Part shown: in pieces, positions 30,983-48,536 of the stretch
Numbering within the stretch: position 1 is the first letter of the stretch
Layout of the letters: each line of letters opens with the position of its first letter
Assembly: GCA_018889975.1 (NCBI GenBank)
Contig: CP076546.1
Location: 4,154,501-4,218,500, forward strand
Direction of reading: 5' to 3'
Origin: Bacillus sp. NP157
Lineage (GTDB): Bacteria > Pseudomonadota > Gammaproteobacteria > Xanthomonadales > Rhodanobacteraceae
Length of the DNA: 64,000 nucleotides
Notes under the pieces: model-generated
Database searches by the model: none
Told to the model about the DNA's origin: nothing
What the model saw: the letters and a program-made list of their open reading frames with translations, nothing else
Program-made: the position numbers and the translations under genes

Positions 30983-31026
30983 CCCTGGCACGGAAGCACT
31001 TCGACCCGAAGTGATCGCGGCCAGGG
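30983..31026 (+). promoter_or_regulatory. Two-tier hairpin at the cdiB start
   Basis: Outer arms CCCTGGC (30983-30989) and GCCAGGG (31020-31026) enclose an inner perfect stem CACTTCG-ACC-CGAAGTG (30997-31013). The outer 3' arm includes GGGA, the only Shine-Dalgarno-like bases before the cdiB ATG (31032). The transcript could therefore hide the ribosome-binding site. Alternatively the DNA palindrome is an operator. Confidence 0.5.
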
Positions 31027-31031
31027 ACGTT

Positions 31032-32760: not shown

Positions 32761-35700
32761 ATGAAGAGCCTTTCTTTTCCCCACGGCACCGCCCAGTCGC
32801 TTGCCCTCGCCATCCTCGTCGCACTGGCCGGTGGCCCGGTCGCCGCACAGGCGCAGGTCGCCCCCGCGGCGGGTTCGGCCCACGCGCCGGGCGTGGATCA
32901 CGCCGCCAATGGCACGCCGGTGGTGAACATCGTCGCGCCGAACCAGCGCGGTGTGTCGCACAACCAGTACCAGGACTTCAACGTCGATCCGCGCGGCCTG
33001 GTGCTGAACAACAGTGGTGCTGTCAGCCAGGCCCAGCAGGCGGGCTACATCGTGGGCAACCCGAACCTCGCGAACGGCGCGTCCGCACGGATCATCGTCA
33101 ACGAGGTGACCTCGGCCAATTCGTCTCGCCTGCGAGGGTTCACCGAAGTCGCGGGCCAGCGGGCCGAAGTGGTTATCGCCAATCCCAACGGGATCAGCTG
33201 CGACGGCTGTGGCTTCATCAATACCTCGCGCAGCACGCTGGTGACCGGCACGCCGTTGTTCGGTGGCGATGGAAGCCTCGCGGCGTTCCGCGTCACCCGC
33301 GGGCAGATCGCGATCGAAGGCGCCGGATTGAACGCCTCCGGGGCCGACCGGCTCGATCTCATCGCCCGGACCGTCGCCGCCAATGCGAAGGCATGGGCCA
33401 ACGAACTCAACGTCGTTACCGGTGCCAATGAGGTGGATTACACCGGCCTCGGTGCCAGGGCGATCGCGGGCGAGGGCGCGGCGGGCGTCAGCCTCGACGT
33501 GGCCGCGCTCGGTGGCATGTATGCCAACAAGATCCGGTTGGTGGGAACGGAGACCGGCGTCGGCGTGCGCAACGCGGGCGAGCTGGCGACGCAGGGCGGT
33601 GACTTCACCATCGACCAGGCCGGCCATCTCGAACTGACGGGGAAAACGACGTCGACGGGGCATCTCGGTATCCAAGCCGCGGCGCTGGCCAACAGCGGCA
33701 CGCTCGCCTCGGGCGGCAATGTGACGCTGTCCACCACCGGGGCCATCGACAACAGCGGCACGATCTACGCGGCGAACGATGCCGCGCTCAGCAGCGGTGG
33801 GTCGCTGGCCAACAGCGGCAAGCTTTACGCCGTCGCGGGGCTTCTCGATATCCATGCAGCGGGGTTCCGCAACACGGGCGCTGGCGATGCGTACGCGGGC
33901 AAGCAGCTGGCGGTGCGTGCGGACAACATCGCCAACGAGGCGTCCATGGAGTCGGGCGGCGGACTGCTGCTGCAGACGGGCGGCACGCTGCGGAACACCG
34001 GGACGGTCATTGCCGGTGGGGCGGCGCGCGTGGAAGGTGGCGACATCGATAACAGCGGCCGTCTCAGCCTGGCGGGCCCCGCCGTGCTGTGGGCGACGCG
34101 TGCAGTGGTCAACCGCGGGACCCTCGTCGCGGGTGGCGAAACGTCGGTGCGCGCCGCTGGCATCACGAACGACGGCCACTGGCAGTCGGGTGGCGACATG
34201 GCCCTTTCGGGCGCGTCGCTTTCTGTCGGTGCGCAAGGCGTGTTGTATGCGGAGCGCGGCTTGACGGTCGATGTCGACGGCAGCGTGGATAACGCCGGCC
34301 AGGTCTACGCCGCTGGCACGCTGGGTCTGCGTGCTGGCGCGCTCGATAATGCGAACACCCTGCGCGCTGGTGGCGACCTGTCGGTCCGCGTGGCTGGCGA
34401 CCTCGGCAACACCGGCAAGCTGATTTCCGACACGGGTAACGTGACCCTGGCTGCCAACCGCATCACCCAGGACGGCATGGTCAGCGCCGTCGGCGATGCC
34501 GCCCTGTCGGCCGCGAACGTGCTCAGCAATACGGGTACGACGGTGGCAAGGGGCAACCTGGTCCTCAACGCGGGCACGCTCGTATCGTCGGGCGTGCTCG
34601 GTGCGGGGATCCAGGCCGATGGCAGCCTTGGCACCGCCGGCATCCTCAACGCCACTGTCGCAGGGGCGCTGTCGGTCCACGGTGACACCCTGGCGGCGAG
34701 CGGGCTCACGCTGTCGGCGGCGTCGCTTGACCTGGACCATGCACACCTCCGCTCGGCGGGCGACATCTCGCTTACCGCCCGCCAGGGCGGGATCGACACC
34801 GGGGACGCCGACGTCGCGACGAGTCGTGCGTTGGCGTTGCACGCGGCCGGGGCGATCGGCAATCGCGGCGGTACGTTGCAAGGTGGCACGCTGGCGATCG
34901 CGGGCGGCAGCCTCGACAACCGGGGCGGCACCATCACCCAGACGGGATCGGCCGATCAGGTGCTGTCCTTCGGGGGTGGCATCGATAACTCCCGTGGACG
35001 CATCACGTCGAACGGCAAGAACGTCACGTTGCGTGCGTCGTCGATGCTCAACAACGACGGCGCCATCGAGCATGCGGGTGATGGCGTGCTCACCATGCGC
35101 AGTGGTGGTGGCGTTGCCAGCCGTGGTGGCCGCATCGTCGGCAATGGTGCGCTGGATCTCGATACGCAGGGCGCACTCGATTCGACCGGTGGCACGATCA
35201 GCCTGGCCCAGGGCGTGACGCTCAACGCCGCGAGCATCGCCAACGATGGCGGCACGCTCGTCGGCAGCGCACTGGCGGTGACGACGGCGGGTGTCCTGTC
35301 CAACGATGCCGGGACGATCCAGTCCGGTGGCGCCACCCTTATCAACGCAGGCTCGCTCGCCAACGGCAGCGGCCAGCTCAAGGGGCTCTCCGGCGAACTG
35401 ATTCGGCTCGGCATCGCCAACGCGCTCAGCAATGGCGTCGGTGGTTTCATCGGTGGCAACGGCGGCCTTTGGTTGCACGCCGCTGCGCTGGATAACGCGG
35501 GCCAGGTCTATACCGGTGGCAGCGCCAACATCGCCACGACGGGCCAGCTCGTCAATCGCGGTGCGATCCAGGCCATGGGCGGCCTGTCGGTCGCCGCGGG
35601 CACGGCACTGGACAACAACGGCGGCCGTATCGAGGGCGGTAGTGGCGACAGCGCGGCGGAGCTCGCCGTCAGTAGCCGATCGCTGGCGAATGTCGGTGGC

Positions 35701-38700
35701 CGCATTGCCAACGGCGGCGCCGGGCAGACCCGCTTCAGCGTCGGCGGTGGCATCGACAACAGCGGAGGCACCCTGGGTGGCCAGGGCAATGTGTCGGTCA
35801 ACGGCACATCGATCGACAACAGCGACGGTCGCGTGGTCGCGGGTGGCGACCTGGCCCTCGGCACCGGAGCTTTGTTGAACGCCCGCGGCAATGTCTACGC
35901 CGCGGGGACGCTCGCCTGGCACAACGGCGATGCCGTGCTGACCAACACCCAGGGCCAGTTTGGCGCGGGCGCACGCCTGGCGCTCACCCTGGCGTGGCTG
36001 GAAAACCTTGAAGGCAATGCCTCGTCCAACGGCGACGTGGCGCTGTCGCTCACCGGCGGCATCGTCGGCGACGGGCGCGTCATCGCGGGCCGCGACCTCG
36101 ACATCAGCCTGCCGGGGCATTTCGTCAATAGCGGTGGTAGCCAGTTCAAGGCCAACCGGAACTTCGGCCTGCACCTGGGTGGTTCGTTTTACAACGGCGA
36201 TGGCGCGGTGCTGGAGAGCGTTGGCGCGCTCACGATCGACGCGGCGTCCATCGACAACGGCACGGGCGCGCGGATCAGCAGCGCCGCCACTACCCTGAAC
36301 TCACGTGGCCAGGTCACGAACCGTGGGCGCCTCGAAGGCGATACGCTCGACGTCAGTGGTACCGATATCGATAACACCGGCTCGATCATCGGCGACACCA
36401 TCACCATCCGTGCGCTTAACCTCACCAACGGTGCCGACCTTGGCGGTGTCACGGACAATGCGGCCTACCAGTCCGCGCTGATCGCCGCCACGAAGGATGT
36501 CAGGCTGCTGGTCGGCGGCACCTTCCTCAACCGCGACGCGATGGTGTTCGCGCTGGGCGACATCTTCATCGCCGCCGACGAGGCCGGTAATCGCACGCAG
36601 GCGATCGTCAACCGCTCCGGTGATATCGAAGCCGACCAGCGCGTGACGCTGGCCGCGCAGCAGATCACCAACGAACGTCGTGTCTTCGAGACCGAGACCG
36701 TCCGACTTGCCGACGACGCGGTGAAGCAATCGAGTGGCCCCGTGGTGCGCTATGCGTACAACGATCCGGATCCGAATCATCGGCCGCCGAACATCGATCC
36801 CTCGCAGGTCGTGTCCGCGGAAGAGATCGCGCTGGCGCGGGCGTATTGCCAGCAGAGCGGTTACGACAACCACCGCTGCATCGGCTTCCGTGATGGCGAC
36901 GGGATCCCTTCGTCGTTCGAAGGCTCCTTCGTCGACACGCTGGTGTCGTACGAGCGGCTGAAGCGCACCAGCGCCGAAGGGCGCATCGTCGGCGGTACCG
37001 ACATCGTGCTGTCCGGTTCGGTGACCAACGACAAGTCCACCGTCGCCGCCGGCAACAACCTCATCATCAACGGAGCCGGCCAGGGCTCGGTGGGTGCGGG
37101 CGAGACCGCCATCGGCGGCGAAATCATCCGCAATATCGCCTGGGCCCCGACGGGCACGGTCCGCACGGTGGCCTTCAACGGCGTCGGCTGGGAGGCGCTG
37201 GTGCATGACCCGCGTCGCTGGGTGCCCGACGGGTTTCGTATCTACGGCACGAGCAGCAACATCGCGACCATCGCCCTGGGCGACGGCCAGCGGCCCGCAT
37301 GGATCACGATCGACCCGGGCCAGGGCCTGGCCTCGCGGATGACCGCGGGTGGCTCCCTAAAATTCCACGGCGAGGCGATCGAAAACACCACCGTCGGTGC
37401 CGATGGCAAGCCGATCAGCGGCGTACAACTGGGTGCCAACGTGGGCGGTGGCAATGTCGTCGGCAAGGGCGCTGGCCAGGTCGGCCACGCCGGCGGCGAC
37501 GTCGACCTCGGCGGCCTGGGTGACGCACCGGGCAACAGCCACGCCGGCCCGCGTCCGGGCTCGCAGAGCATCGGTGGTCCCGACGCGCCGGCCGGGCAGA
37601 TCCGGCTGCCGTCCAATGGCCTGTATACGACGCACGCCGGCAGCGGCAGCCCCTACCTGATCGAGACCGACCCGCGCTTCGCCAGCAAGGCCGGCTTCCT
37701 CGGCAGTGACTACCTGATGCGCCGGCTCGGCTTCGACGGCACGCGCCTGATGAAGCGCCTCGGCGACGGCTTCTATGAACAGCGGATGGTGCTCGACCAG
37801 ATCACCTCGCTGACCGGCCGCCGCTACCTCACCGACAACACCGATGCGATGGCGCAGTACCGCGCGCTCATGGATGCGGGCGCCGAAACGGCGGGCACCA
37901 TCCAGCTCGCCGTCGGTGTCGCCCTCACCTCCGACCAGATGGCGAACCTCACCCAGGACATCGTCTGGATGGTGAGCCAGGAGGTCAACGGCGAGAAGGT
38001 GCTGGTGCCGGTGGTCTACCTCTCCGCCGCGCACGCGCAGGAAGCGGCGCAGGGCGGGGCGATCCTCTCCGGCAAGTCGGTGGTGCTCGATGCGTCGGGC
38101 GCGCTGACGAACACCGGCACCATCGCGGCAAGCCGTGACGCCAGCCTCAAGGCGGGCACCCTGCTCAATGCGGGCAACCTCACCGCCGGCGGTGATCTAA
38201 ATGTTACCGCGGCGCAGGACATCCTCAATGGTGGGGTGATCAAGGGCGGGAACGTCAGCCTTGCGGCTGGCAACGACATCCGCAGTGGCGCCGATATCGG
38301 CCGCGTCGACCTCGGCGGACTGAAGCTCGGCGACGCCATGGCACCGTTCGATGCCGGCCGCCTCGGGCTCGCCACCGGCGGTTCGATCGCTTCGACCGGC
38401 GACCTCAGCGCAAATGCGGGCCGCGACCTTGCGCTGGGCAACGTGCTGGCGACGGCCGGTGGCGATCTGTCTCTGTCAGCGAAGCGCGATCTCTCACTTG
38501 ACGCGACGTCGGTCAAGGCGGGCGGTGATGCGCAGCTCGTCGCCGGAGGGGACATCAGCCTGGGTGCGACCAGCCAGACGACGGCTGTGCAGGGTGGAAT
38601 GCATAACAGTGAGCGCACAGCGCACGCGGTGACGACGATCAGCGCGGGTGGAAGTGCCGCACTCGTGGCTGGGCGGGATGTGATCAGCGAAGGGGCAAAG

Positions 38701-41700
38701 GTCACTGCGGGTGAGCAGTTGGTTGTCAGCGCCGGTCGCGACGTCGTTCTGAATGCCGTCACCGACACCGAGCGGCACGATGCCCATGACAAGGAAGGCA
38801 AGAAGCTGATCCGCACGTCGACCATGGACGAAACCCTCAACGGCACGCAGCTGGCAGGCGCGCAGGGCGTAACTATCAGCGCAGGCCACGACGTCAACGC
38901 CACCGCCCTGAGCATCACCAGCGAAACGGGTGGTGTTGCACTGGCGGCGGCAAACGACATCACCCTGAATGCTGGGGCTGAGCGGCACACAACCCAGCAA
39001 ACAACCCAGAAGAAGACGTCCAGCACCTTCTCGAGTAAAAAGACGAGCACGCGGGACACCACGGATGACACGTACGCCATCGGTTCCGCTATCCATGGCG
39101 CCGATGGCGTTATCCTCGCAGCGTCGCGCGACATGAGGCTGCAGGGCACCCAGGTCAGTTCCGATGGTGCCATCGCGCTCGCGGCGGGACGCGACATCGC
39201 CCTTGAAGCCACGCATGACAGCTACAGCGAAAGCCATGCCTCGCGGACCAAGAAGTCCGGCGCGGTCCTCAACCGCGGCCTGGCGCCGGTGCACCAGGGC
39301 AAGGCCACTACCCGCGACTCGTCTACGACCCAGACCATCGCACATGGCACGACCGTGAGCGGTGACAGTGTCACCGTCGCTGCCGGCCGGAACCTTGTCG
39401 GCCAGGGCGTGCAGATCGCCGCGACGAACGATGTGCTGCTCGCCGCGGGGAACGATCTGCGCCTGACCACCGCCGAGAACACCTACAGCTCGAGCCAGGA
39501 CAGCTCGGTGACGTATACCGGCTTTTCCCGTCAGGGCTTGAACGATCACTATGGGAAGGCAAGGGATACGCAGGGCCAGAGCATCACGGAACTGACCCAC
39601 ACCGGCAGCCTGGTCGGCTCAACCAATGGTCAGGTCACCCTGACGGCAGGCAATGACCTGCGCCTGACCGGGACTGACGTGATCAGCGAGCGAGCCACCA
39701 CGATCGTTGGCAAGAATATGACGATCGACTCGACGGTCGGTACCGTCGATGCGACCCAGTACCAGCGCCACGACGAAGGCGGGGTCACCGTAGGCCTCGG
39801 AGGCTCCATGGCGTCCCTTGCGATGGACGCGCGGCAGTCCGCCCGGCGTGCCAGCGAAGTCGATGACGGTCGGCTCAAGGCACTGTACGCCGCTAAGGCC
39901 GCCTATGACATCAAGGACCTCAGCGACGCGTACGTTGCCAAGGGCGTTCGCGCCGGTGAAGGTGGGAAGGCAGGCGAAGAGGGCATCAACGTCCAGGCCA
40001 GCGTCGGCGGCAAGAGCGCGAGCAGCCGCACAACCAGCCACGACGAAGTTGCCTTCGGAAGCCATATCCGGAGTAACGGCGATGTCACCATTGCGGCTAC
40101 CGGTGGCGATCTGAACATCATCGGGAGCGAAGTTACGGGCAATAACGTGGCCCTCGCAGCTGCGCACGACATCAACCTGCTGAGTCAGGCCGAACAGCAC
40201 ACACTCAAGAACGACTCAAAGAACAGCAGCGGCGGTGTGGGTGTGAGCTTTGGGACGAGCGGCTTGGGCATCTTCGCAGAGGCGAGCGTCGGCAACGGCA
40301 AGGTTCGGGGCAACGGCACGACGCACGCCGAAACAACAATCAACGCTGGCAATGTCCTCACCCTGCTTAGCGGGAATGACACGACCATCCAAGGCGCGCA
40401 GCTGAAGGGTGAGCAGGTCATCGCCGACATCGGGAACAACCTGACCATCCGCAGCGAGCAGGACACCGACGATTACGCCAGCAAGACCATGCAGGCCGGC
40501 GGCAAGGTCATGGTCGGCTGGACACAAAGTGGGTTCGTCAGCGCAAGCGGTTATTACAGCAAAGGAACGGTCGACAGCCATTACCAGAGCGTCAACGAAG
40601 TCAGCGGCATCAAGGCTGGCGCCGGCGGGTTCCAAATGGCGGTGGGCGGCACGACACACCTGGTTGGCGGCCAGATTGCCAGCACGGCCGATGCGTCGAA
40701 GAACCTACTGAGCACGGGAAGCCTTGTCTATGAGGATCTGCACAACGAGACCAAGTACAAGGCCACCCAGGTGACCATGAGCGGCGGGAGTACCCTGGCG
40801 AGCAACATTTCGGGCGCCGTGGGTGCCGCTGTTGGCCTGCTTACGCCGCAGCACGATAACGAGAGTAGCGACACCAAGGCGGGTATCGCTGGAGGCACGA
40901 TCATCGTGCGTAATGAGCCGGGCAAGGATCTCAGCGGCCTCGATCGTACGCCGACACTGGCGAACGATTCCCTCAAGAATGTGTTCGATCTGGAAAAGGT
41001 TCGCGAGAACCAGGAATTGACCACGCTTACTGGCTATGTCGGGATGCGCGGCGTCGGCGATGTGGCTACCCACATGCAAAACAAGAGTAAGACCGAAGAG
41101 GAATGGAAGTCCTGGGGCGACGGCGGCCGAAACAAGGTGATCCTGCACGGCGTCGTCGGCGCTGCCATAGCAGCGCTGGGCGGTGGAAGCGCAGCTGAGG
41201 GCGCGCTCGGCGGCACCGCGAGCGAGGCTGCATCCAAGGCGATGCAGGAGTTCCTCTACAAGCAGGGCGTGGATCCGCGCAGTGACGAGTGGCGAGCTTT
41301 CATGGAGCTTGGAAGTGCCGCTGTAGGTGGCGTCGCGGGCCAAGGAACGGGTGCGCTTGCTGCTCTCAATGGTGAAAAGTACAACCGGCAGATTCACCCC
41401 AGCTTGGTCAACTTCATCACCGACGAGGTCGCCATAAAGTATGCGGCGGAGAAGGGCATCACTGAGCGTGAAGCACGCGGCCTGCTCATTCGTGCGGTGA
41501 TGGCGGCGAACGATGACTTTTCCGGGAGATACTTCGGTGGAAAGGACGTTGGCGTGAACGATACCCCTGAGCAGCGCGACGACGCGCGGGATTTTCTCGG
41601 CCTCAACAATCCTGCCACTCTAGATGGATGGAAGTACGATCTAACATCGACGGGGGAGGAGCGAGCGAATTCGGAGCTCGGCGCCGACCAGCTGTTTAAA

Positions 41701-42411
41701 GATAAGCGCGCGTTGGCCAGTGTTCTGGAGGCTATGAATCCACTCGGAGATGTCGGCCGAGAGTCTGCGCTTCTTACGTACTACGAAAGCACGAGCTTGC
41801 CTGAGCGAGTCGATGCATGGGTATCTGAAGACACAGGTAAGTTCCTGAAGTTTAATGGTCAGCTCGTCATGACTGGCGTAAGTGGAGGCTTGTCAGCGGG
41901 CGTTCCATTCTTGGCGGCAGCTAATGCATCTCGCGAAGGCGCGCTAGTCGCGAACGCCGCTACCTACGTTCTGGCCTCGCGAGCTGGCGCAGGCGCGTTG
42001 AATGGAGGGGTCAATGCTGCCTCGCAGCTCGCGCAAGAAGGGCATGTCCGGTGGACGAACGTCCTTATAGCGACGGCTGGAGGATCCCTCGGTGTCGGTG
42101 GTGGTGCTTCGTGGAACATGGCAGTCGGTTCGGTTGGAGCGTTTGCACAGACCGAACTTAACAATCGAATCTACAACGAAAACAACGATCCTTTCTTAAG
42201 CTCGCTTTTCTCCGGAATCGCTAATGGCGCGGGCTATAAAAATGGAGGTTTGATCACCAACTGGATGCGAAAAAAAATGCCGTCGTCTGTCTTGCCATAT
42301 GTCTCAGGTAATGCGGCTGGTCCTATGACAGCGGAGGCCTTTCAGGCACTTATGAATTCGGTGCAAACGCAGGCGCCAAAGGAAGGTACCGCACGAGTCC
42401 ATGAAAAATGA
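32761..42411 (+). CDS. cdiA: CdiA-type contact-dependent inhibition toxin / filamentous haemagglutinin
   Basis: 3216 residues from the ATG at 32761. Signal peptide ending VAAQAQV; two-partner-secretion domain (VVNIVAPNQRGVSHNQY...NPNGISCDGCGF at about 140) with the characteristic Cys pair; many FHA-1 repeats (DNSGTIYAANDA type) to about 1300; a distinct Tyr/Pro/Cys region about 1330-1760 (PDPNHRPPNIDPSQ; YCQQSGYDNHRCIG) that fits the receptor-binding part; FHA-2 repeats (LAAGRDIALEATHDSYSE) to about 2650; a pretoxin Ala/Gly region (VVGAAIAALGGGSAAEGALGG). No VENN motif; the junction appears as YNRQIHP near 2880. The last ~340 residues contain hydrophobic Gly/Ala stretches (GGSLGVGGGASWNMAVGSVG) and lower-GC codons; the toxin class is not recognised, a membrane-acting toxin is suspected. 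The stop overlaps the next gene. Confidence 0.93.
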   Translation: MKSLSFPHGTAQSLALAILVALAGGPVAAQAQVAPAAGSAHAPGVDHAANGTPVVNIVAPNQRGVSHNQYQDFNVDPRGLVLNNSGAVSQAQQAGYIVGNPNLANGASARIIVNEVTSANSSRLRGFTEVAGQRAEVVIANPNGISCDGCGFINTSRSTLVTGTPLFGGDGSLAAFRVTRGQIAIEGAGLNASGADRLDLIARTVAANAKAWANELNVVTGANEVDYTGLGARAIAGEGAAGVSLDVAALGGMYANKIRLVGTETGVGVRNAGELATQGGDFTIDQAGHLELTGKTTSTGHLGIQAAALANSGTLASGGNVTLSTTGAIDNSGTIYAANDAALSSGGSLANSGKLYAVAGLLDIHAAGFRNTGAGDAYAGKQLAVRADNIANEASMESGGGLLLQTGGTLRNTGTVIAGGAARVEGGDIDNSGRLSLAGPAVLWATRAVVNRGTLVAGGETSVRAAGITNDGHWQSGGDMALSGASLSVGAQGVLYAERGLTVDVDGSVDNAGQVYAAGTLGLRAGALDNANTLRAGGDLSVRVAGDLGNTGKLISDTGNVTLAANRITQDGMVSAVGDAALSAANVLSNTGTTVARGNLVLNAGTLVSSGVLGAGIQADGSLGTAGILNATVAGALSVHGDTLAASGLTLSAASLDLDHAHLRSAGDISLTARQGGIDTGDADVATSRALALHAAGAIGNRGGTLQGGTLAIAGGSLDNRGGTITQTGSADQVLSFGGGIDNSRGRITSNGKNVTLRASSMLNNDGAIEHAGDGVLTMRSGGGVASRGGRIVGNGALDLDTQGALDSTGGTISLAQGVTLNAASIANDGGTLVGSALAVTTAGVLSNDAGTIQSGGATLINAGSLANGSGQLKGLSGELIRLGIANALSNGVGGFIGGNGGLWLHAAALDNAGQVYTGGSANIATTGQLVNRGAIQAMGGLSVAAGTALDNNGGRIEGGSGDSAAELAVSSRSLANVGGRIANGGAGQTRFSVGGGIDNSGGTLGGQGNVSVNGTSIDNSDGRVVAGGDLALGTGALLNARGNVYAAGTLAWHNGDAVLTNTQGQFGAGARLALTLAWLENLEGNASSNGDVALSLTGGIVGDGRVIAGRDLDISLPGHFVNSGGSQFKANRNFGLHLGGSFYNGDGAVLESVGALTIDAASIDNGTGARISSAATTLNSRGQVTNRGRLEGDTLDVSGTDIDNTGSIIGDTITIRALNLTNGADLGGVTDNAAYQSALIAATKDVRLLVGGTFLNRDAMVFALGDIFIAADEAGNRTQAIVNRSGDIEADQRVTLAAQQITNERRVFETETVRLADDAVKQSSGPVVRYAYNDPDPNHRPPNIDPSQVVSAEEIALARAYCQQSGYDNHRCIGFRDGDGIPSSFEGSFVDTLVSYERLKRTSAEGRIVGGTDIVLSGSVTNDKSTVAAGNNLIINGAGQGSVGAGETAIGGEIIRNIAWAPTGTVRTVAFNGVGWEALVHDPRRWVPDGFRIYGTSSNIATIALGDGQRPAWITIDPGQGLASRMTAGGSLKFHGEAIENTTVGADGKPISGVQLGANVGGGNVVGKGAGQVGHAGGDVDLGGLGDAPGNSHAGPRPGSQSIGGPDAPAGQIRLPSNGLYTTHAGSGSPYLIETDPRFASKAGFLGSDYLMRRLGFDGTRLMKRLGDGFYEQRMVLDQITSLTGRRYLTDNTDAMAQYRALMDAGAETAGTIQLAVGVALTSDQMANLTQDIVWMVSQEVNGEKVLVPVVYLSAAHAQEAAQGGAILSGKSVVLDASGALTNTGTIAASRDASLKAGTLLNAGNLTAGGDLNVTAAQDILNGGVIKGGNVSLAAGNDIRSGADIGRVDLGGLKLGDAMAPFDAGRLGLATGGSIASTGDLSANAGRDLALGNVLATAGGDLSLSAKRDLSLDATSVKAGGDAQLVAGGDISLGATSQTTAVQGGMHNSERTAHAVTTISAGGSAALVAGRDVISEGAKVTAGEQLVVSAGRDVVLNAVTDTERHDAHDKEGKKLIRTSTMDETLNGTQLAGAQGVTISAGHDVNATALSITSETGGVALAAANDITLNAGAERHTTQQTTQKKTSSTFSSKKTSTRDTTDDTYAIGSAIHGADGVILAASRDMRLQGTQVSSDGAIALAAGRDIALEATHDSYSESHASRTKKSGAVLNRGLAPVHQGKATTRDSSTTQTIAHGTTVSGDSVTVAAGRNLVGQGVQIAATNDVLLAAGNDLRLTTAENTYSSSQDSSVTYTGFSRQGLNDHYGKARDTQGQSITELTHTGSLVGSTNGQVTLTAGNDLRLTGTDVISERATTIVGKNMTIDSTVGTVDATQYQRHDEGGVTVGLGGSMASLAMDARQSARRASEVDDGRLKALYAAKAAYDIKDLSDAYVAKGVRAGEGGKAGEEGINVQASVGGKSASSRTTSHDEVAFGSHIRSNGDVTIAATGGDLNIIGSEVTGNNVALAAAHDINLLSQAEQHTLKNDSKNSSGGVGVSFGTSGLGIFAEASVGNGKVRGNGTTHAETTINAGNVLTLLSGNDTTIQGAQLKGEQVIADIGNNLTIRSEQDTDDYASKTMQAGGKVMVGWTQSGFVSASGYYSKGTVDSHYQSVNEVSGIKAGAGGFQMAVGGTTHLVGGQIASTADASKNLLSTGSLVYEDLHNETKYKATQVTMSGGSTLASNISGAVGAAVGLLTPQHDNESSDTKAGIAGGTIIVRNEPGKDLSGLDRTPTLANDSLKNVFDLEKVRENQELTTLTGYVGMRGVGDVATHMQNKSKTEEEWKSWGDGGRNKVILHGVVGAAIAALGGGSAAEGALGGTASEAASKAMQEFLYKQGVDPRSDEWRAFMELGSAAVGGVAGQGTGALAALNGEKYNRQIHPSLVNFITDEVAIKYAAEKGITEREARGLLIRAVMAANDDFSGRYFGGKDVGVNDTPEQRDDARDFLGLNNPATLDGWKYDLTSTGEERANSELGADQLFKDKRALASVLEAMNPLGDVGRESALLTYYESTSLPERVDAWVSEDTGKFLKFNGQLVMTGVSGGLSAGVPFLAAANASREGALVANAATYVLASRAGAGALNGGVNAASQLAQEGHVRWTNVLIATAGGSLGVGGGASWNMAVGSVGAFAQTELNNRIYNENNDPFLSSLFSGIANGAGYKNGGLITNWMRKKMPSSVLPYVSGNAAGPMTAEAFQALMNSVQTQAPKEGTARVHEK

Positions 42412-42626
42412 CCCGCCTACTTCTTAGCATCGCGGTCGGATTGAATTTCTTTGTGTTCACAACAAGCCTGACCGTCATCTTTGCGTGGATAGCATGCGCA
42501 ATAAAGGGTATTGACTTTGATTTCGTGTTCGCCGTGACATTCGCGAGTAAGCGAGGATTGGTGTCGGCAGTCATGGGTATGCTTCTCGTCTATCTGCCGC
42601 AACCAAGACCTCGAAGACCCCACTAG
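42408..42626 (+). CDS. Two-helix membrane protein, candidate CdiI immunity protein
   Basis: 72 residues whose ATG overlaps the cdiA stop (ATGA), the position of CdiI. Sequence MTRLLLSIAVGLNFFVFTT... has two hydrophobic segments (about 4-33 and 43-62) separated by the short polar GIDFDF and ends in a basic PRPRRPH tail, so it is an inner-membrane hairpin. Known ionophore CdiA toxins are neutralised by small membrane immunity proteins, which agrees with the hydrophobic CdiA C-terminus. It is related in layout and motif (M-R-x ... Asp-Phe loop ... Gly-rich second helix) to the proteins at 45371, 45656 and 45976. Function is inferred. Confidence 0.7.
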   Translation: MTRLLLSIAVGLNFFVFTTSLTVIFAWIACAIKGIDFDFVFAVTFASKRGLVSAVMGMLLVYLPQPRPRRPH

Positions 42627-43058
42627 CGAACATTCAGGCTATCAACGGTTTTGAAACATCGCTTCAGTCGTTAGACCAAGTACGTGAGAAACGAAGGCAG
42701 ACTTCTGTTGCCTAGCTCTTTTGACGTCTTCTTGGTCGATACCAATTTAAATGACGCAATTGAGCGACGGGTTGAGTCGATGCGGGATGTCAGGATCAAT
42801 CGTGCGATGTTAGAGAGCGAAACAATATTTGACTACGCGCTTTTCGACAAATTCGTCGAACCCGTGCGCGTGGGCCTGGGGAAGCGAGGCTGTTGCGAAC
42901 GCCGCTGTCTGGGGTGACAGCATTTAGGGATTCGTGAACCAGTTGACGAGCGAACATCACGATTGTTGCCTCCCGAAGTATTGATGAGCCCCAATCGAGA
43001 AGTGGGTGCCAGGGTTTGACGAAGTTATTTAGTGATGAAGGAAAGAGAGGGGTTTTTG
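42627..43058 (+). other. Low-GC gap after cdiI with one doubtful ORF
   Basis: A 432-base stretch of lower GC than the flanks. The only ORF is 42684-42917 (GTG, 77 codons, includes FDYALFDKFVEPVRV), without a recognisable family or good ribosome-binding site. In the next frame the end reads AWGSEAVANAAVWGDSI then a stop, vaguely like the SREGALVANAATYV of the CdiA C-terminus, so the segment may be a decayed toxin or immunity remnant. Confidence 0.35.
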
Positions 43059-44186
43059 ATGAAAGGCATTTTTGCCAGAGCTACTATGCTCGCTTCAATA
43101 TGTGTTTCTGGTATCTGCCAAGCGGGCGATGAGGCGCCTCGTACGCTGCGCTTTCTTGCAGATCGCTCGAGGTTTATCGCGGAGCTCCAAGCAAAGAGCG
43201 AGGCGTCGAGGCTCAGGGCCCTCAACAGCAAGGCTATCGTCGAAGGCGCCGCCTCCCTGGCGCGGCTCGACGAGCGATCGGCGGCGGCACGGAAGGGCTC
43301 GTTTGTCGAGGCCGATGCTCTCGGTTCGGACCTGCGAGCTTACCTGCTTGGTAAAGGGGTCGATCTGAATTCAGACGATGGGCAGGAAGTGGTCAGCCGT
43401 GTAGCTGCCGCGGTCGCTGTAAGTGCGGCGAGCGAAGCAGATGAGAAGAAGCCGCAAGACACGGGCGTCTTGCTTCGTCCCCTCACGGACGTAGAAGTCG
43501 CTTGGATTCATCAGCATGCGGAGCAATACGGATTTGAGCGTCGTCTGCCGCCGCAAGAAGCAGCACTGCTGCTTCTTGCGCAGGCGGGTCGCCAAGTCCG
43601 CGATGGTTCAAATGCAGACTGGGATCTAGACTCCAGCAGGTTTCTCTCGCGCGCGACGAGAGCAAGATTCGTTGACTCCGACCACCCAGGTCTATCACTT
43701 CGGATGTTCCACCCGTCGTTCTCTTCTAAAGGAGAGAGCCTTGCTAACGCACGACGGTCACTGTCCGGTGAAGAGCTTGCCTTCGCAGTCAGATTTGATC
43801 TGGTGGACCCGCCCAATGCTGCTCATCTCTACGGAGCCACTCACTATTCGATGAAAGGCCGTGTGAGATCGGGCGTCGACAGCGGAGTGGAGGTCGCTAT
43901 CCTTTCGACTGTTCGGCCGGCCACACGAGTAGCCGGTCGTTTGGCAGTAGCTTGCGCGGCGATTGATTTAGTGGCATGCCGACAAAGCGACGGTCTATCG
44001 TTGGCGTTCTCCGGTGACCGCCGCATTGGCGGACCCACGTTTGGAGGGCCGTCTCAGCTCTCGGAGTCTATGCCTTATTGGGTAAATGTGAATCGCTTTT
44101 ACCAATCAATGACTGACTATGGCGTGAGCGCTGTTACGCAAGAACAGTTTGCGATTGACATGGCCAAGGTTGGTGGCCAGAACTAG
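43059..44186 (+). CDS. Exported protein of unknown function in the CDI locus
   Basis: 375 residues from the ATG at 43059, preferred over starts at 43032/43035 because GAGAGGGG is 7 bases upstream and MKGIFARATMLASICVSGICQA is then a clean signal peptide. The mature part starts with a long charged helix (LADRSRFIAELQAKSEASRLRAL) and Ala-rich segments, followed by a mixed domain with Cys pair (ACAAIDLVACRQSDG) and aromatic C-terminus (YWVNVNRFYQSMTDYG). No family is recognised. Position between the CdiI candidate and a lipoprotein suggests cargo exchanged with CDI modules. Confidence 0.7.
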   Translation: MKGIFARATMLASICVSGICQAGDEAPRTLRFLADRSRFIAELQAKSEASRLRALNSKAIVEGAASLARLDERSAAARKGSFVEADALGSDLRAYLLGKGVDLNSDDGQEVVSRVAAAVAVSAASEADEKKPQDTGVLLRPLTDVEVAWIHQHAEQYGFERRLPPQEAALLLLAQAGRQVRDGSNADWDLDSSRFLSRATRARFVDSDHPGLSLRMFHPSFSSKGESLANARRSLSGEELAFAVRFDLVDPPNAAHLYGATHYSMKGRVRSGVDSGVEVAILSTVRPATRVAGRLAVACAAIDLVACRQSDGLSLAFSGDRRIGGPTFGGPSQLSESMPYWVNVNRFYQSMTDYGVSAVTQEQFAIDMAKVGGQN

Positions 44187-44189
44187 TTC

Positions 44190-44492
44190 TTGCAATTCGA
44201 GCGTGTGAGTACCTCTTGGGGAAGCAGGAAGATTTCTCCCTTGAGTTCGACTCGGATAACGTCCTGCGGATTATCAGGTGCGGATTTGCGGGTGGATCGT
44301 GCCTCGGAGTTTCATCTTTTCTCTTGGCATATTCTGGCCGTCACCGATGAGTCGGGAAGAAAGCGACGCACGGCCATGCACGGAACAAGCTCGTTCGTAG
44401 ATCTTCCATTCTGGATTCCGGATGCATCCGCCGAAGCCGTGCATAGCCCGCGTCTCACAGCTGCGCAACTACGTGCAGGAATGAACTTATGA
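44190..44492 (+). pseudogene. Probable decayed small gene
   Basis: A TTG-initiated frame of 100 codons whose second half looks protein-like (FHLFSWHILAVTDESGRKR...FVDLPFWIPDASAEAV), while its first half is poor; the adjacent frame instead reads EYLLGKQEDFSLEFDSDNVLRII over 44207-44270. A +/-1 frameshift near 44275 would join the two good halves. I therefore read it as a frameshifted small gene of unknown family. Confidence 0.35.
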
Positions 44493-44505
44493 CAAGGAGT
44501 CATAC

Positions 44506-45216
44506 ATGCGTCACTACGTCATTTCGACAGTTTTCGTTGCCATCGCGCTCTCCGGTTGCGCCGGTGGCCCGAAGCGTCCGGCGCTGAGCTCGGATGTCAT
44601 CGACACGATTCGCGCCAAAGGTCTCAACATGAAGCCTGCAGACGACGCGACTTTCCTCACGCAAACGAAGGAAAAGATCGCGGCGCTCGCCGTGTTGAGC
44701 TTCGCTACCGCTGCGCTGGGCGGAGGCAATCCGATCCCTGTCGGCCAGCGCAACAGGATGCCAGAAGGCGGGTATCTCGATGCGAACGCTTGGCCCTTAT
44801 CTCAGGTCGTCGTCGATGCCGGTGAGTTCAAAGACCCTGGGAAAGCAATGGACGTGAGTTTGCGGGACCGTTTGGCAAAGATAGGCATCATCCACAACCC
44901 AGCCGCGAACTACTCAATGATCGCCTCTGTCGATTTCTGGGCACTCGACTTCGAGAATCTCACCGAGTCCGATAACTACCGCTTGTACTTCGACCTGAGG
45001 CTGACCTTGAAGCGCGGGGTCTTCTTTGCGAAGACGGTCCGATGCGCGGGTGCGTCGCTTGAGAAACATAACTATGACGACTGGATGGCTGGTGATCACG
45101 AGCGCATCCATCGTACGGCGGCGGTGATTGGCGATAGCTGTGCCAGTCGGATGTTGGCAGAGCTTGACCTTGCGGGTGGTGAGACTGTGCCTTTGGTCTT
45201 GGAGGCCGAAGGTTGA
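44506..45216 (+). CDS. Lipoprotein of unknown function
   Basis: 236 residues. ACAAGGAG precedes the ATG by about 8 bases. N-terminus MRHYVISTVFVAIALSGCAGG is a lipoprotein signal with lipobox ALSGC (Cys 18). The mature domain has an Ala-rich hydrophobic stretch (IAALAVLSFATAALGGG) and a globular C-terminal half with two Cys (VRCAG; DSCASRM). No family recognised. The last ~17 codons (DLAGGETVPLVLEAEG) are duplicated in diverged form at 47207-47258 (VPAGGAALPLASEADG), marking one edge of the cassette repeats. Confidence 0.75.
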   Translation: MRHYVISTVFVAIALSGCAGGPKRPALSSDVIDTIRAKGLNMKPADDATFLTQTKEKIAALAVLSFATAALGGGNPIPVGQRNRMPEGGYLDANAWPLSQVVVDAGEFKDPGKAMDVSLRDRLAKIGIIHNPAANYSMIASVDFWALDFENLTESDNYRLYFDLRLTLKRGVFFAKTVRCAGASLEKHNYDDWMAGDHERIHRTAAVIGDSCASRMLAELDLAGGETVPLVLEAEG

Positions 45217-45345
45217 GCTGATTAACGTGAACCCCTGGAGTACGAGTCGCGCGCAGGCGCGCTCCTGCGGGAGGGCGGCGGCCAGGACGGTTAGGTTGGC
45301 GACGGTGTTGAATGTTCGTGCGATGCCGACCTTGAATCAGGCCGC
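45160..45345. repeat. Direct repeat A flanking the immunity cassette
   Basis: Composed of the 3' end of the lipoprotein gene, a REP element and, on the minus strand, about 22 codons of a DUF1697 3' end (KVGIARTFNTVANLTVLAAAL). The whole block is repeated in the same order at 47200-47385 with roughly three-quarters of bases matching, including TGCCTTTGG, the complete REP core and GGCGACGGTGTTGA. Confidence 0.75.
45247..45268. repeat. REP palindrome within repeat A
   Basis: TCGCGCGCAGGCGCGCTCC followed by TGC, one base different from the 47290 copy at the same place in repeat B. Its TAG has been lost in this copy, consistent with the DUF1697 fragment beside it being non-functional. Confidence 0.8.
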
Positions 45346-45370
45346 CATCTAGACCTATTGATGCAGGGCA

Positions 45371-45586
45371 ATGAGAGCATACCTAGCGGTTACCTCTACG
45401 ATGTTTGCAGTTTCTTTCATTAGTGTCGCCTTCTGGGGGGTGATAGCGACGATCCTTTATGGGGCGGCATTCACTGTTGAAGGCATGCTTTTCCTTCTCA
45501 AGCAATCACTGATTGCTGGATCGGGTACTGCCGCCACGTGCTTTGCTATTGCCGCCTTCTTTCTGCGCCGAAGAAGTCGTAAGTAA
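45371..45586 (+). CDS. Two-helix membrane protein, orphan-immunity paralogue 1
   Basis: 71 residues, MRAYLAVTSTMFAVSFISV..., hydrophobic 7-32 and 40-64, loop AAFTVEG, basic tail RRRSRK. It aligns without long gaps to the proteins at 45656 and 45976 (MF-x2-SF-x5-GVI ... LL-x5-IAG ... CF) and more loosely to the CdiI candidate at 42408. No recognised domain. Weak GCAGGG before the ATG. First gene inside the repeat-flanked cassette. Confidence 0.7.
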   Translation: MRAYLAVTSTMFAVSFISVAFWGVIATILYGAAFTVEGMLFLLKQSLIAGSGTAATCFAIAAFFLRRRSRK

Positions 45587-45655
45587 TGCGAGTGATGCCC
45601 TCATAGAAAGAATGGTCTAGCGCAGAAGGTTGCGGGTGTACCAAGAGACGAAGAA

Positions 45656-45979
45656 GTGAGAAGGCTCTTTAATGCGGCAAAGTTCGGTTCGGTCATGTTT
45701 GCGACGGTGTTCGTCATGGCCGTGGTGTCTGGGGTGATCGTAAACCTGATCTACGAATTTGACTTTAGCGAGCGAAGTCTCCGGCTTTTATTCACGCTGG
45801 CATTCTTAGCCGGCGTCAAGACTGGGTTTGTATGTTTTCTGCTGGGAATCTTCAATGTGTACTGGAAAATTGGGTCAAAGGCGCGTGGACGTGGTTGTGA
45901 TCTCGCACGATCACTAGGACGCGATAGACAGATTGAGCGTTTCGAAAAAGCTCAACCTAACGATGGGGCGTCGAAATGA
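45656..45979 (+). CDS. Two-helix membrane protein with C-terminal extension, orphan-immunity paralogue 2
   Basis: 107 residues from a GTG at 45656 in an AAGAGACGAAGAA purine-rich context. The first 75 residues (MRRLFNAAKFGSVMFATVFVM...FCFLLGIFNVYW KIGSK) align with the next gene, which ends at the same IGSK. Here the frame continues for 32 polar residues (GRGCDLARSLGRDRQ...), probably by loss of the original stop. Overlaps the following gene by ATGA. Confidence 0.7.
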   Translation: MRRLFNAAKFGSVMFATVFVMAVVSGVIVNLIYEFDFSERSLRLLFTLAFLAGVKTGFVCFLLGIFNVYWKIGSKARGRGCDLARSLGRDRQIERFEKAQPNDGASK

Positions 45980-46203
45980 GACGGCTAGTCAGCGCTGTGA
46001 TCTACGGATCAGCAATGTTCTGTACTTCGTTTGTAATTGCGGCGTCGTGTGGCGTGATTTACACGATATACGACGGCTTGAAATTTGACGAAAAGGTTGT
46101 CTTTTTCTTTCTTCGGAAAGCGTTTATTTCTGGTGCGGTAGCGGGGGTTGCGTGCTTTTTGATCGGCTACTTTGGAGTTCATCGACGAATCGGGTCCAAG
46201 TAG
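45976..46203 (+). CDS. Two-helix membrane protein, orphan-immunity paralogue 3
   Basis: 75 residues, MRRLVSAVIYGSAMFCTSF..., hydrophobic 8-32 and 44-68, central loop YDGLKFDEK, ending HRRIGSK. Nearest relative of the preceding gene: MRRL, GS-x-MF, GVI, F-x3-L-x-x-AF, CFL-x-G-x-F are shared. ATGA overlap with it implies coupled translation. Like its neighbours it would form a membrane hairpin with both ends in the cytoplasm. Confidence 0.72.
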   Translation: MRRLVSAVIYGSAMFCTSFVIAASCGVIYTIYDGLKFDEKVVFFFLRKAFISGAVAGVACFLIGYFGVHRRIGSK

Positions 46204-46258
46204 CTTAGCGACGGTCTTCTGCCTTGTCAGAAACGGCACGAACAGCGCCGCGAACGCA

Positions 46259-46564
46259 ATGATTGAAAGTCGAAGCCAAAGAGGCGGTGGGCCAGTGATC
46301 GATGGGCTCTGGTCTGGCGTTATCGGCGCGGTTATGGCCCAGTTCTCGAAGGTGAAGCCATCACCTTTGACATACGGCTTGGTGTTCTTAGCCGGAGCAA
46401 TCGGGGCAGTAGTCTTTATGGTCTTCTGCTTCACTGAGCACGGACGATGGAGAGAAGGTATCGACATCTTTATCAGCGTGCTGTTTACGCCTCTCGTCCC
46501 GATATCAATGATTGTCGGCGGATTATTTTTGACTTCGATATTCTGGTTCAGGATTGATCGATAG
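46259..46564 (+). CDS. Small membrane protein in the immunity cassette
   Basis: 101 residues from the ATG at 46259, or 76 from the ATG at 46334, which would match the size of the array members; neither has a good ribosome-binding site. Two hydrophobic segments (YGLVFLAGAIGAVVFMVFCF; FTPLVPISMIVGGLFLTSIFWF) flank a charged loop TEHGRWREGID. Layout like the array proteins but no clear residue match, so it may be an unrelated immunity type. Confidence 0.5.
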   Translation: MIESRSQRGGGPVIDGLWSGVIGAVMAQFSKVKPSPLTYGLVFLAGAIGAVVFMVFCFTEHGRWREGIDIFISVLFTPLVPISMIVGGLFLTSIFWFRIDR

Positions 46565-46572
46565 CTTGTTGA

Positions 46573-46641
46573 TATCCCATTGATGCCATGTTTTCGGTGA
46601 CATTCGCGTGGAAGTGGGGAATGGTTCCTTCGGTCATGGAT
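46573..46641 (+). pseudogene. Remnant of a CdiI-like gene
   Basis: After a stop, the frame reads YPIDAMFSVTFAWKWGMVPS then VMD. Ten of eighteen residues equal VFAVTFASKRGLVSAVMG of the CdiI candidate (codons 40-57), and the DNA shares GTGACATTCGCG and GTCATGG. Only this piece of the gene is present, directly before the zinc-ribbon gene. Confidence 0.55.
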
Positions 46642-47061
46642 AAGCATCAAATGCTGAAGAAAAGTGCCAGATCACTCGGCATCGAGGTGCTCATGCTGAG
46701 CAGTCTGGAGAGTCACGGTGTGACGTTTGCGATAGACGAGTCTCGATCTGATGTGGTGGGCGCCCAGTGCGCAAATTGCAACACGATAGTCTGGAAGAGC
46801 GGTAGGGAAGATAAGATCCTGAGCGAAGTGCCTCCGGTAGGCGTACCTGACTCTGGCGCTGGCTATCGAGCGTATTACGCTTCAAAGGTCGATCGCTTTC
46901 TCGCAGCTATTCCGGCTTGTCCGGACTGTGGAGCGACTAACTTTGATCGGTTTGTGACAAACGTCCGAACACCAAGATTCTCCGACGGAACGGTTTGGTG
47001 TGCGGATGCATCGCACAGTGCCATCCCAACATCCGATCGGGACGTGTGGTGGCTTGGATAG
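46636..47061 (+). CDS. Zinc-ribbon-like protein of unknown function
   Basis: 141 residues from the ATG at 46636 (MDKHQMLKKSARSLGIEV). An earlier in-frame ATG at 46588 belongs to the immunity-gene remnant and would add 16 non-native residues. Two CxxC pairs, QCANC (about 55) and ACPDCG (about 98), are spaced as in a zinc ribbon. A short N-terminal helix and WWLG end are the other features. No signal peptide or membrane segment. Last gene of the repeat-flanked cassette; role unknown. Confidence 0.65.
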   Translation: MDKHQMLKKSARSLGIEVLMLSSLESHGVTFAIDESRSDVVGAQCANCNTIVWKSGREDKILSEVPPVGVPDSGAGYRAYYASKVDRFLAAIPACPDCGATNFDRFVTNVRTPRFSDGTVWCADASHSAIPTSDRDVWWLG

Positions 47062-47199
47062 GGTGTCTGCATCGACATCAGATAAAGCAACGAACAGACG
47101 GCATCATAATCTTGCCGTTCTTACAAGAGATATCCGACTTGTTCGACGCCGCATCTGTTCCGTGGACGTCGTTCCCCCTGGTACCCATTGGGGCGTGTG

Positions 47200-47385
47200 A
47201 AGTCGAGGTCCCCGCGGGTGGTGCGGCTCTGCCTTTGGCCTCTGAGGCTGATGGGTAAGCGGACGATTGTGACCTTCTGGATGTAGGGGTCGCGCGCAGG
47301 CGCGCTCCTACAGGAGGGCGGTGGCGAGGTCGGTTAGTTTGGCGACGGTGTTGATGTTTCGCGCGGTGCCGGCTTTGGCGGCTGG
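47200..47385. repeat. Direct repeat B flanking the immunity cassette
   Basis: Matches repeat A (45160-45345) in order: fragment encoding AGGAALPLASEADG and a stop (counterpart of the lipoprotein C-terminus), REP element, and the genuine 3' end of the DUF1697 gene (KAGTARNINTVAKLTDLATALL). The 47062-47199 part of the gap contains no convincing gene. Confidence 0.75.
47290..47311. repeat. REP palindrome supplying the DUF1697 stop codon
   Basis: TCGCGCGCAGGCGCGCTCC-TAC; read on the minus strand its TAG at 47308-47310 is the stop codon of the DUF1697 frame. Confidence 0.8.
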
Positions 47386-47823
47386 GATCACCAGCTTGGA
47401 CGAGGCCATGCCGTCGTCGTATCGGACGTAGATCTCACGCTTGCCCAGGCGGATTTCCTCGTTCGCCTGGTGGCGTACCGAAGCCAGGGCGTCTTTGGGC
47501 GGTGGCGCATCGAGGAAGATGGCTACCACGCGGTTGCCGGGCGCATCGGGGAAGGGATTGGCGGCGAGCACGGCGGCCATTTCGGCGGCGGTGCGGACCA
47601 TGACTCCGACGGGCTTGCCGGCCTAAGCCGCCAGGCGGGCCTCAAGGGCGGCCTTGACGGCCTTCTCCTTGAGCGTGGAGGTAAACACCACATTGCCACT
47701 GGCGATATAGGTCTTTACCGCAAGGAAGCCCTCCGCCTCGCACATGGCCTTCAACTCGGCCATCGGTAGCTTCCCGGTGCCGCCGACGTTCACGGCGCGG
47801 AGCAGGGCGATGAAAGCGGGCAT
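47308..47823 (-). pseudogene. DUF1697 protein gene interrupted by an in-frame amber codon
   Basis: Minus-strand frame from the ATG at 47823 (MPAFIALLRAVNVGGTGKL) to 47308 is continuous except for TAG at 47623-47625, between LEARLAA and AGKPVGVMVRTAAEM. Without it the protein is 171 residues, the normal DUF1697 length, and both halves keep family motifs (YIASGNVVF; NPFPDAPGNRV; KREIYVRYDDGMASSKL). No frameshift is needed. It is either a nonsense pseudogene, a sequencing error (one base from CAG, AAG or GAG), or a suppressed stop. DUF1697 function is unknown. Confidence 0.8.
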
Positions 47824-47873
47824 GCAATGTATCCCCCAACGGAAGGCATGCCCGCAGTGTAAGCCGCCGCCGA

Positions 47874-48536
47874 TCAGAAGGCGTATTCGGCGCCGACGCC
47901 TACGGTGTTAACGGCCAGGAGTTGCGTACGGCCGTCGGTGTAATTTACCCGGTTCGCGAAGTAGCGGGTCGCATCGATGCTGAGGGTCAGCTTGGGAAGG
48001 ACGGCGTAGCCGAGGCTGACGCCGAAGTACGGGCGAGTGTTGCTGGCGTTGACCCACGACTTCCTGAGCAGGCCGGGCCCGATGAGCCGGTCGCGCTGGC
48101 GGGCCTGGTTCCAGGCAACGCCGCCATGGGCGACCAGCGAAAGCTGGTCGGCGATATGCCATTTGAAGGTTCCGCCCAGGAGGTAGGCGCGAAGGTCGAG
48201 GTCGCGGGTGTATAGCGCCTTGTTCTTGCTGCCCGCGATGGGCAGGTATTGGCGGTGGCCCAGGTGGCCAAGCCACGCGTACCCGCCTTCGGCACCCAGG
48301 GCGAACTGGTCGGCGACGGCCCAGCGGTAGCCGATCAAGGCATTGCCGTAGCGGCCGTGGGTGTCCTTCTGCACGTTGCGATCGATGTTGAACGAGGATT
48401 TCCCGAAGGTGGCATGGACGAAGAGGCCGCTTTGCGCGCCCCCCGACCTGGAGGATCCGCTGCCGCCATCGGTGGCGTGCGCGGCTAACGGTACGGCGCC
48501 CAGCAGCAGGGCGGTAAGGATGAGCTTTCGTTTCAT
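47874..48536 (-). CDS. Outer-membrane beta-barrel protein (OmpA/OmpX-like)
   Basis: 220 residues from the ATG at 48536 (AAGGGA upstream), not the longer frame to 48626. Signal peptide MKRKLILTALLLGAVPLAAHA. Alternating hydrophobic beta strands (GLFVHATFGKSSFNI; GNALIGYRWAVADQFALGAEGGYAWLG) and a terminal Phe (GVGAEYAF) indicate an 8-strand barrel. Related in pattern to the gene at 53022. Role probably structural or adhesive; not determined. Confidence 0.82.
   Translation of the reverse strand: MKRKLILTALLLGAVPLAAHATDGGSGSSRSGGAQSGLFVHATFGKSSFNIDRNVQKDTHGRYGNALIGYRWAVADQFALGAEGGYAWLGHLGHRQYLPIAGSKNKALYTRDLDLRAYLLGGTFKWHIADQLSLVAHGGVAWNQARQRDRLIGPGLLRKSWVNASNTRPYFGVSLGYAVLPKLTLSIDATRYFANRVNYTDGRTQLLAVNTVGVGAEYAF

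Follow-up and report, generated by a model that had tools for sequence, protein, structure and literature searches.

Small membrane-protein genes behind a cdiA gene: a probable island of orphan immunity genes for ionophore-type contact-dependent inhibition

Introduction

Why would a bacterium keep a row of small membrane-protein genes behind a cdiA gene when only the first of them is joined to a toxin? The question is raised by positions 4154501–4218500 of a one-contig 4.88-Mb genome (CP076546.1, filed as Bacillus sp. NP157), a stretch of 64,000 nucleotides that we call the window and from whose first letter all coordinates below are counted. It contains a contact-dependent growth inhibition (CDI) locus, with cdiB beginning at 31011 and cdiA ending at 42411, and 3′ of this cdiBA locus lies an array of small genes at 45371–46203. 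A first-pass annotation had grouped the three array genes with a fourth, at 42408, as an orphan library of CDI immunity (cdiI) genes. As we argue below, the window most probably (at roughly 80%) holds a CDI locus with an ionophore-like CdiA C-terminus together with an island of immunity genes, in which the three array paralogues are orphan members of the same immunity-gene superfamily. This reading draws on sequence homology and gene order, on the toxin remnants of a sister species, and on purifying selection.

Results

Small hydrophobic proteins follow related CdiA C-termini

The features on which the argument turns, with small genes named hereafter by their first coordinate, are as follows:

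31011–32744, plus strand: cdiB-type transporter gene (ShlB/FhaC with POTRA domains; an open reading frame matching Pfam ShlB at 1.5e-93, POTRA_3 and POTRA_2)
32761–42411, plus strand: cdiA-type gene (Pfam TPS at 5.1e-51, plus haemagglutinin repeats)
41812–42411, plus strand: CdiA C-terminus, glycine-rich and hydrophobic, a putative ionophore (boundary approximate and chosen by us; homologues at 12 loci)
42408–42626, plus strand: putative cognate immunity gene, product P0001 (4-nt overlap with cdiA; relatives at CdiA 3′ ends)
44237–44362, plus strand: degenerate second half of a 45976-type gene with a TGA inside (E 2.2e-4; profile domain E 0.0039)
45371–45586, plus strand: predicted orphan immunity paralogue, P0002 (relatives P0013, 72%, and P0014, 43/71)
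45656–45979, plus strand: predicted orphan immunity paralogue, P0003 (C-terminus longer by about 29 residues, which extend into the following gene; relative P0010, 81% over 78 residues)
45976–46203, plus strand: predicted orphan immunity paralogue, P0004 (4-nt overlap with the preceding gene; relatives P0015, 88%, and P0011, 83%)
46580–46648, plus strand: remnant of a 42408-type gene, where the 46588–47061 open reading frame begins (72% over 69 nt to 42517–42585)

The cdiA frame opens at 32662, and its likely start is the first ATG with a signal-like beginning, at 32761. Searched with the 199-residue C-terminus, 233 genomes of the family yielded 13 matches, which fall at 12 distinct loci in 10 genomes; three of the loci are those of Dyella monticola, D. 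mobilis and D. jiangningensis. At 11 of the 12, the toxin stop coincides with or adjoins the start of a hydrophobic open reading frame of 70–101 residues, and seven of those 11 share the window's 4-nt overlap. The exception, G072, matches only query residues 2–104; in D. jiangningensis, one of the 11, the first copy of the small frame looks frame-broken and an intact copy follows. The C-terminus has no match in Pfam and none in the plasmids searched with it, and among long proteins it found three matches, one of them the window's own.

All four small frames proposed at first exist, and three of them encode proteins of about the expected 70 residues (42408, 72; 45371, 71; 45976, 75); the 45656 product has 107. 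Its hydrophobic part lies within the first 78 residues, where its relative P0010 ends, and its tail reaches into the 4-nt overlap with the start of 45976. By hydropathy and charge, each of the four proteins has two hydrophobic stretches and basic N- and C-ends, the second stretch of 42408 reaching only 1.42. None of the four matched Pfam, NCBIfam (at the curated cut-off) or PADLOC (E up to 1); six relatives of the small proteins likewise had no Pfam match above cut-off, and a PDB search returned only two weak matches, at E 0.21, to an iron-sulfur protein.

Three of the four are clear paralogues

The proposal of four paralogues held for three. The 45976 protein is 41% identical to 45656 and 37% to 45371, and 45371 is 27% identical to 45656; a search of the genome with the 45976 protein recovered 45656 (E 5.5e-12), 45371 (E 9.2e-7) and the half-copy at 44237–44362 (E 2.2e-4), a member missing from the original list. 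On sequence grounds, then, 45371, 45656 and 45976 are clearly true paralogues. The same search did not recover the 42408 protein, which is 14% identical to 45371 in alignment, shows no BLASTP similarity to 45976 (best E 1.3) and scores 3.5 bits against the 45976-type profile, a value equalled by 58 of 500 local shuffles; hhalign between the 42408-type and 45976-type sub-families gave a probability of 45%. We therefore rejected kinship of 42408 to the other three through pairwise similarity or the 45976-type profile, and what connects them is the profile of CdiA-linked proteins described next.

Two further pieces had been proposed as members. The fragment placed at 46573–46641 is real: positions 46580–46648 are 72% identical at the DNA level, over 69 nt, to 42517–42585 (E 5e-5), which identifies it as the remnant of a 42408-type gene. 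The possible divergent member at 46259/46334 was rejected, since the 46172–46564 frame that contains these inner starts scores 6–7 bits, which is background; this frame has a relative of its own in genome G022.

A profile of CdiA-linked proteins reaches the array

We built a profile from 12 small proteins found at CdiA 3′ ends, P0001 (42408) included; one of its rows, that of D. jiangningensis, follows the broken first copy and not the toxin stop. Against this CdiA-linked profile the 45976 protein scores 33.5 bits, a value reached by none of 1000 shuffles, and its relatives P0015 and P0016 from genome G009 score 30.2 and 30.8 bits (0/1000 local shuffles each). In a scan of 54 two-helix open reading frames from 235 kb, the 45976 frame scored 33.2 bits and the best unrelated frame 7.4. 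A bridging protein, P0020 of genome G008, lies behind a cdiA that has a related C-terminus plus its own small gene, and matches the paralogue profile with a probability of 91%.

A sister locus retains broken toxin pieces beside intact small genes

Genome G009 has the same gene order as the window (cdiA, array, DUF1697-like gene). Its CdiA ends in a different domain, lipase-like in our reading of the sequence, followed by a gene for a 281-residue lipoprotein-like protein. The C-terminus profile detects two remnants of ionophore-like C-termini there, one with a broken reading frame and the other interrupted by a stop codon. Each shares 4 nt with an intact small gene; the two genes are P0018 and P0017, the latter 53% identical to the window's 42408 protein. 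P0015, 88% identical to 45976, and P0016 sit between and after the remnants. Thus G009 has damaged toxin pieces beside intact immunity genes, and in the window the toxin pieces are undetectable. The statement that only the first gene is joined to a toxin accordingly holds within the window and fails in G009, where two relatives overlap toxin remnants; a cdiA C-terminal fragment preceding an orphan cdiI was found there for these two relatives, and a search for this one kind of C-terminus found none on the plus strand of window positions 42412–48000.

The small genes appear to be under selection. Simple Nei–Gojobori estimates of the ratio of nonsynonymous to synonymous change (dN/dS), over 71–75 codons and for three gene pairs (45656 not among them), were 0.13 for 45976/P0015, 0.27 for 45371/P0014 and 0.23 for 42408/P0017. 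For the first two pairs, all 2000 random placements produced more amino-acid changes than were observed, and for 42408/P0017 the observed count was reached by one of 2000. This indicates purifying selection on the three genes tested.

We set aside recent interspecies transfer of the 45976 gene as a firm claim: its DNA is 87% identical to G009 and the outer flanks are 82% and 88%, so that vertical retention could suffice. The neighbouring lipoprotein gene is 72% identical between the window and G009, with a synonymous divergence (dS) of 2.25 vs 0.43 for the 45976 gene, which argues that the island genes do not share one common history.

Most relatives found lie at CDI loci or in the island

We searched a set of about 5.8 billion proteins with a profile built on the three paralogues. 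Of 163 candidates, five had E values no higher than 0.01: the 45656 protein of the window itself, a protein of Luteibacter yeojuensis, and P0010, P0011 and P0013. The contigs of the last three are each given as 3,721 bases and are presumably one contig. Each of these proteins matches one window paralogue (P0010 81% to 45656, P0011 83% to 45976, P0013 72% to 45371), so the same trio seems to be present elsewhere. Among the 233 family genomes the three-paralogue profile matched four, one of them weakly.

Run against 398 genomes of the order, a combined profile had 23 matches, spread over 15 genomes. One of them, G270 (a 371-residue frame, E 7e-4), was dropped before counting, leaving 22 matches. 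Matches of other searches were likewise dropped before their counts: G126, G182 and a second G068 match (frames of 634, 591 and 148 residues), G065 (E 0.002), G197 and place 738751 of the window's own genome (E 0.02). Seventeen of the 22 lie at CDI loci or in the island (four each in G000 and G009, two each in G008 and G022, and one each in G021, G092, G098, G099 and G150); the G022 contig begins at the island, so no cdiA is visible there. By this count homologues are not mainly outside CDI loci, with the limit that the combined profile was seeded with CDI-linked proteins, which biases the share of 17 in 22.

At one of these places, in G021 (L054 12145–13744), a short cdiA-like start leads directly into a papain-fold toxin with Imm35. 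A pair of 42408-type genes comes next, of which the second is shorter; the arrangement looks as though the central part of cdiA had dropped out. In G068 (L057 112–4400), two small two-helix proteins stand among many small open reading frames with no assigned identity, with no cdiA in the 9 kb read; this stretch may be an immunity island away from CDI.

Composition and borders of the island

The island of small genes spans from the end of cdiA to an opposite-strand gene at 47308–47823, which we take to be DUF1697-like. GC content falls from 66.7% in cdiA (32761–41000) to 53.8% in its last 450 bases and 47–58% in the island genes, and stands at 65.5% in the flank gene, so that a low-GC island (47–58% vs 65–67% in the surroundings) abuts the cdiA 3′ end. 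The window's flank gene is split into two frames, with one TAG inside the match to an intact G009 protein. Two further island proteins, of 384 residues (43032–44186) and 236 residues (44506–45216), have signal-like starts and no Pfam match above cut-off; the latter has a 70% identical relative in G009.

A repeat marks the island border:

45172–45334, plus strand: island-border repeat, copy 1 (79% over 164 nt to 47214–47377)
47214–47377, plus strand: island-border repeat, copy 2 (79% over 164 nt to copy 1)

The repeat comprises the 3′ end of the 44506 gene and the 3′ end, or a copy of it, of the DUF1697-like gene. Since it occurs twice in the window, whereas in G009 the 44506-type and DUF1697-like genes meet once, we infer that the block 45335–47213 was added by recombination at the end of the island.

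With the flank gene as anchor, six of 23 genomes of the genus match at E below 1e-40, and we read this site in the window and the five others. G009 and G022 carry relatives of the paralogues. G003 has a cdiA with Pfam Imm63 behind it, plus a relative (L052 1246–1587) of the window's 46588–47061 frame; both encode a protein with cysteine pairs, zinc-ribbon-like, which is possibly another immunity family. In G001 (L051 1100–6000, minus strand) there are three similar genes for lipoprotein-like proteins of about 273–301 residues, which look like the gene that follows the lipase-like CdiA in G009. Two frames of 116 and 117 residues, similar to each other, are also present; no cdiA lies within the stretch read, and these genes may be another stack of orphan immunity genes. 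At the G011 site, where the anchor is 65% identical, we saw nothing obvious.

Discussion

A model for the locus

Taken together, the kinship to proteins at CdiA stops, the low-GC island at the cdiA 3′ end, the toxin remnants of G009 and the purifying selection support well, as far as sequence comparison can, the idea of an orphan CdiI library. We propose that the CdiA C-terminus would be a membrane-active, ionophore-like toxin delivered by a two-partner-secretion CDI system, and that the 42408 product would be its cognate immunity protein, a two-helix inner-membrane hairpin with both ends cytoplasmic (a topology predicted from hydropathy and charge), binding the inserted toxin helices and stopping ion leakage. 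The toxin partners of 45371, 45656 and 45976 would have been displaced and then lost; their immunity genes may have stayed because they protect, with a presumed specificity of their own, against related ionophore CdiA proteins of neighbouring strains.

A more far-reaching version, which we offer tentatively and at slightly less than even odds, is that the island is an inherited, immunity-only memory, whose genes were kept by selection after their toxins were broken (the stage of G009) and then removed (the stage of the window), the 164-nt repeated border marking a block of immunity genes swapped in by recombination. The array would then protect against several ionophore toxins while having no matching toxin of its own, a point of interest for the question why orphan immunity genes persist in CDI bacteria. 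The two related genomes show one site at different stages, with remnants broken in G009 and undetectable in the window and with the immunity genes conserved, and this makes the notion of an immunity library testable gene by gene.

Several observations weigh against our reading. No intact toxin was found joined to any gene of the 45371, 45656 or 45976 type, and the C-terminus profile, which seeks one kind of C-terminus, found no toxin remnant on the plus strand of the window between 42412 and 48000. The CdiA-linked profile finds 45656 weakly (11.7 bits, 11/1000 shuffles) and gives 45371 2.6 bits, which is not significant alone (297/1000); in the scan of two-helix frames these two scored 5.6 and 2.2 bits, under the best unrelated frame. 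The profile scores thus tie 45976 directly to the CDI proteins, and 45656 and 45371 to them through 45976. The GxxxGxxxG glycine-zipper pattern, a feature of the toxin partners of type 10 immunity proteins, is present in the window's C-terminus, itself glycine-rich, and at the aligned place in only four of nine C-termini. Finally, five of the 22 matches (G112, G067, G068, G076 and G074) lie in stretches of 3–10 kb without cdiA.

These five relatives, and the lack of any above-cut-off match in Pfam, NCBIfam or PADLOC, are what one would expect if the small membrane proteins had no kinship to CDI, belonging for instance to a different toxin-antitoxin or phage-type system, and had come to lie behind cdiA by chance. 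We consider this very improbable, given the profile link to proteins at CdiA C-termini, the presence of relatives at the matching cdiA-flank site of G009 and G022, and the toxin remnants beside the relatives. Equally improbable to us is a local amplification, in which one immunity gene was duplicated in tandem to raise its dosage, or to vary its binding, against the home toxin. Three genes do stand in tandem, two overlapping by 4 nt; yet their nearest relatives lie outside the genome (88% for 45976/P0015, 81% for 45656/P0010, 72% for 45371/P0013, vs 27–41% inside), and 42408, the type cognate to the home toxin, stands furthest from the rest. An alternative that deserves somewhat more weight, though we think it unlikely, is that these are immunity genes by descent that now protect against nothing and are disappearing, as the fragments at 44237 and 46580 are. 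Those two degenerate copies in the same island and the run-on tail of 45656 fit such decay; the low dN/dS of 45976/P0015 and 45371/P0014, with fewer changes than in any random placement, and the intact relatives of all three paralogues elsewhere do not. Retention as orphan immunity genes of a CDI island remains the reading that we prefer.

Comparison with known systems

The view that no described family carries this signature fails on comparison with the ionophore toxins of CDI type 10 (Halvorsen 2024, PMC11630599), whose CdiI proteins are described as very hydrophobic, 72–100 residues long and predicted to form two-helix hairpins with both ends cytoplasmic; the cited sections give about 30% identity within groups (about 20–50%) and specificity for the own toxin. 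The likeness rests on size, hydropathy and gene order: small, polymorphic proteins with two predicted helices at the end of an ionophore-like cdiA, with 71–75 residues plus one of 107 here. In type 10 the gene stands right after the ionophoric cdiA, a placement that 42408 fits by its 4-nt overlap, if the C-terminus is an ionophore, and that the three paralogues do not. Unlike the set in the consulted parts of that paper, three of the four here are stacked as orphans without a toxin, in a group that its section 6 does not name; the list of groups there lacks this order, and "Xanthomon" occurs once in the text.

Orphan cdiI arrays are known as well. Orphan cdiA-CT/cdiI modules, with orphan toxin pieces that lack a start, place extra immunity genes behind a cdi locus, and the relevant passages suggest an immunity repertoire and call the reason for keeping toxin fragments unclear (Poole 2011, PMC3150448). 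Those modules keep functional toxin fragments, whereas none is detectable before the three paralogues of the window and the G009 remnants are broken. Two further accounts, in the portions consulted, tell of CDI immunity genes collected without a toxin: the non-cognate cdiI genes of Stenotrophomonas (PMC11893273) and, in cdi loci of Pseudomonas aeruginosa, orphan immunity genes numbering up to 15 (the review PMC9086364). Those portions describe no stack of two-helix ionophore-immunity paralogues. Our literature search for Luteibacter and contact-dependent inhibition had no title on Luteibacter CDI among those listed.

The immunity genes of the type VI secretion system (T6SS) of Vibrio cholerae are presumably unrelated to those of the window. 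The logic of displacement is the same in that different secretion system, where the parts consulted describe orphan immunity arrays 3′ of a weapon cluster, the effectors being replaced and the immunity genes staying (Kirchberger 2017, PMC5361080).

The results further suggest that ionophore-type CDI pairs occur in Luteibacter, Dyella and their relatives; we found no Pfam model for such pairs. The strategy and the protein signature are known already, and the window is a fresh example and not a new kind of system; what looks new here is a Luteibacter branch of proteins that resemble ionophore-type CDI immunity proteins and form an orphan stack in an immunity island, with no toxin pieces detectable.

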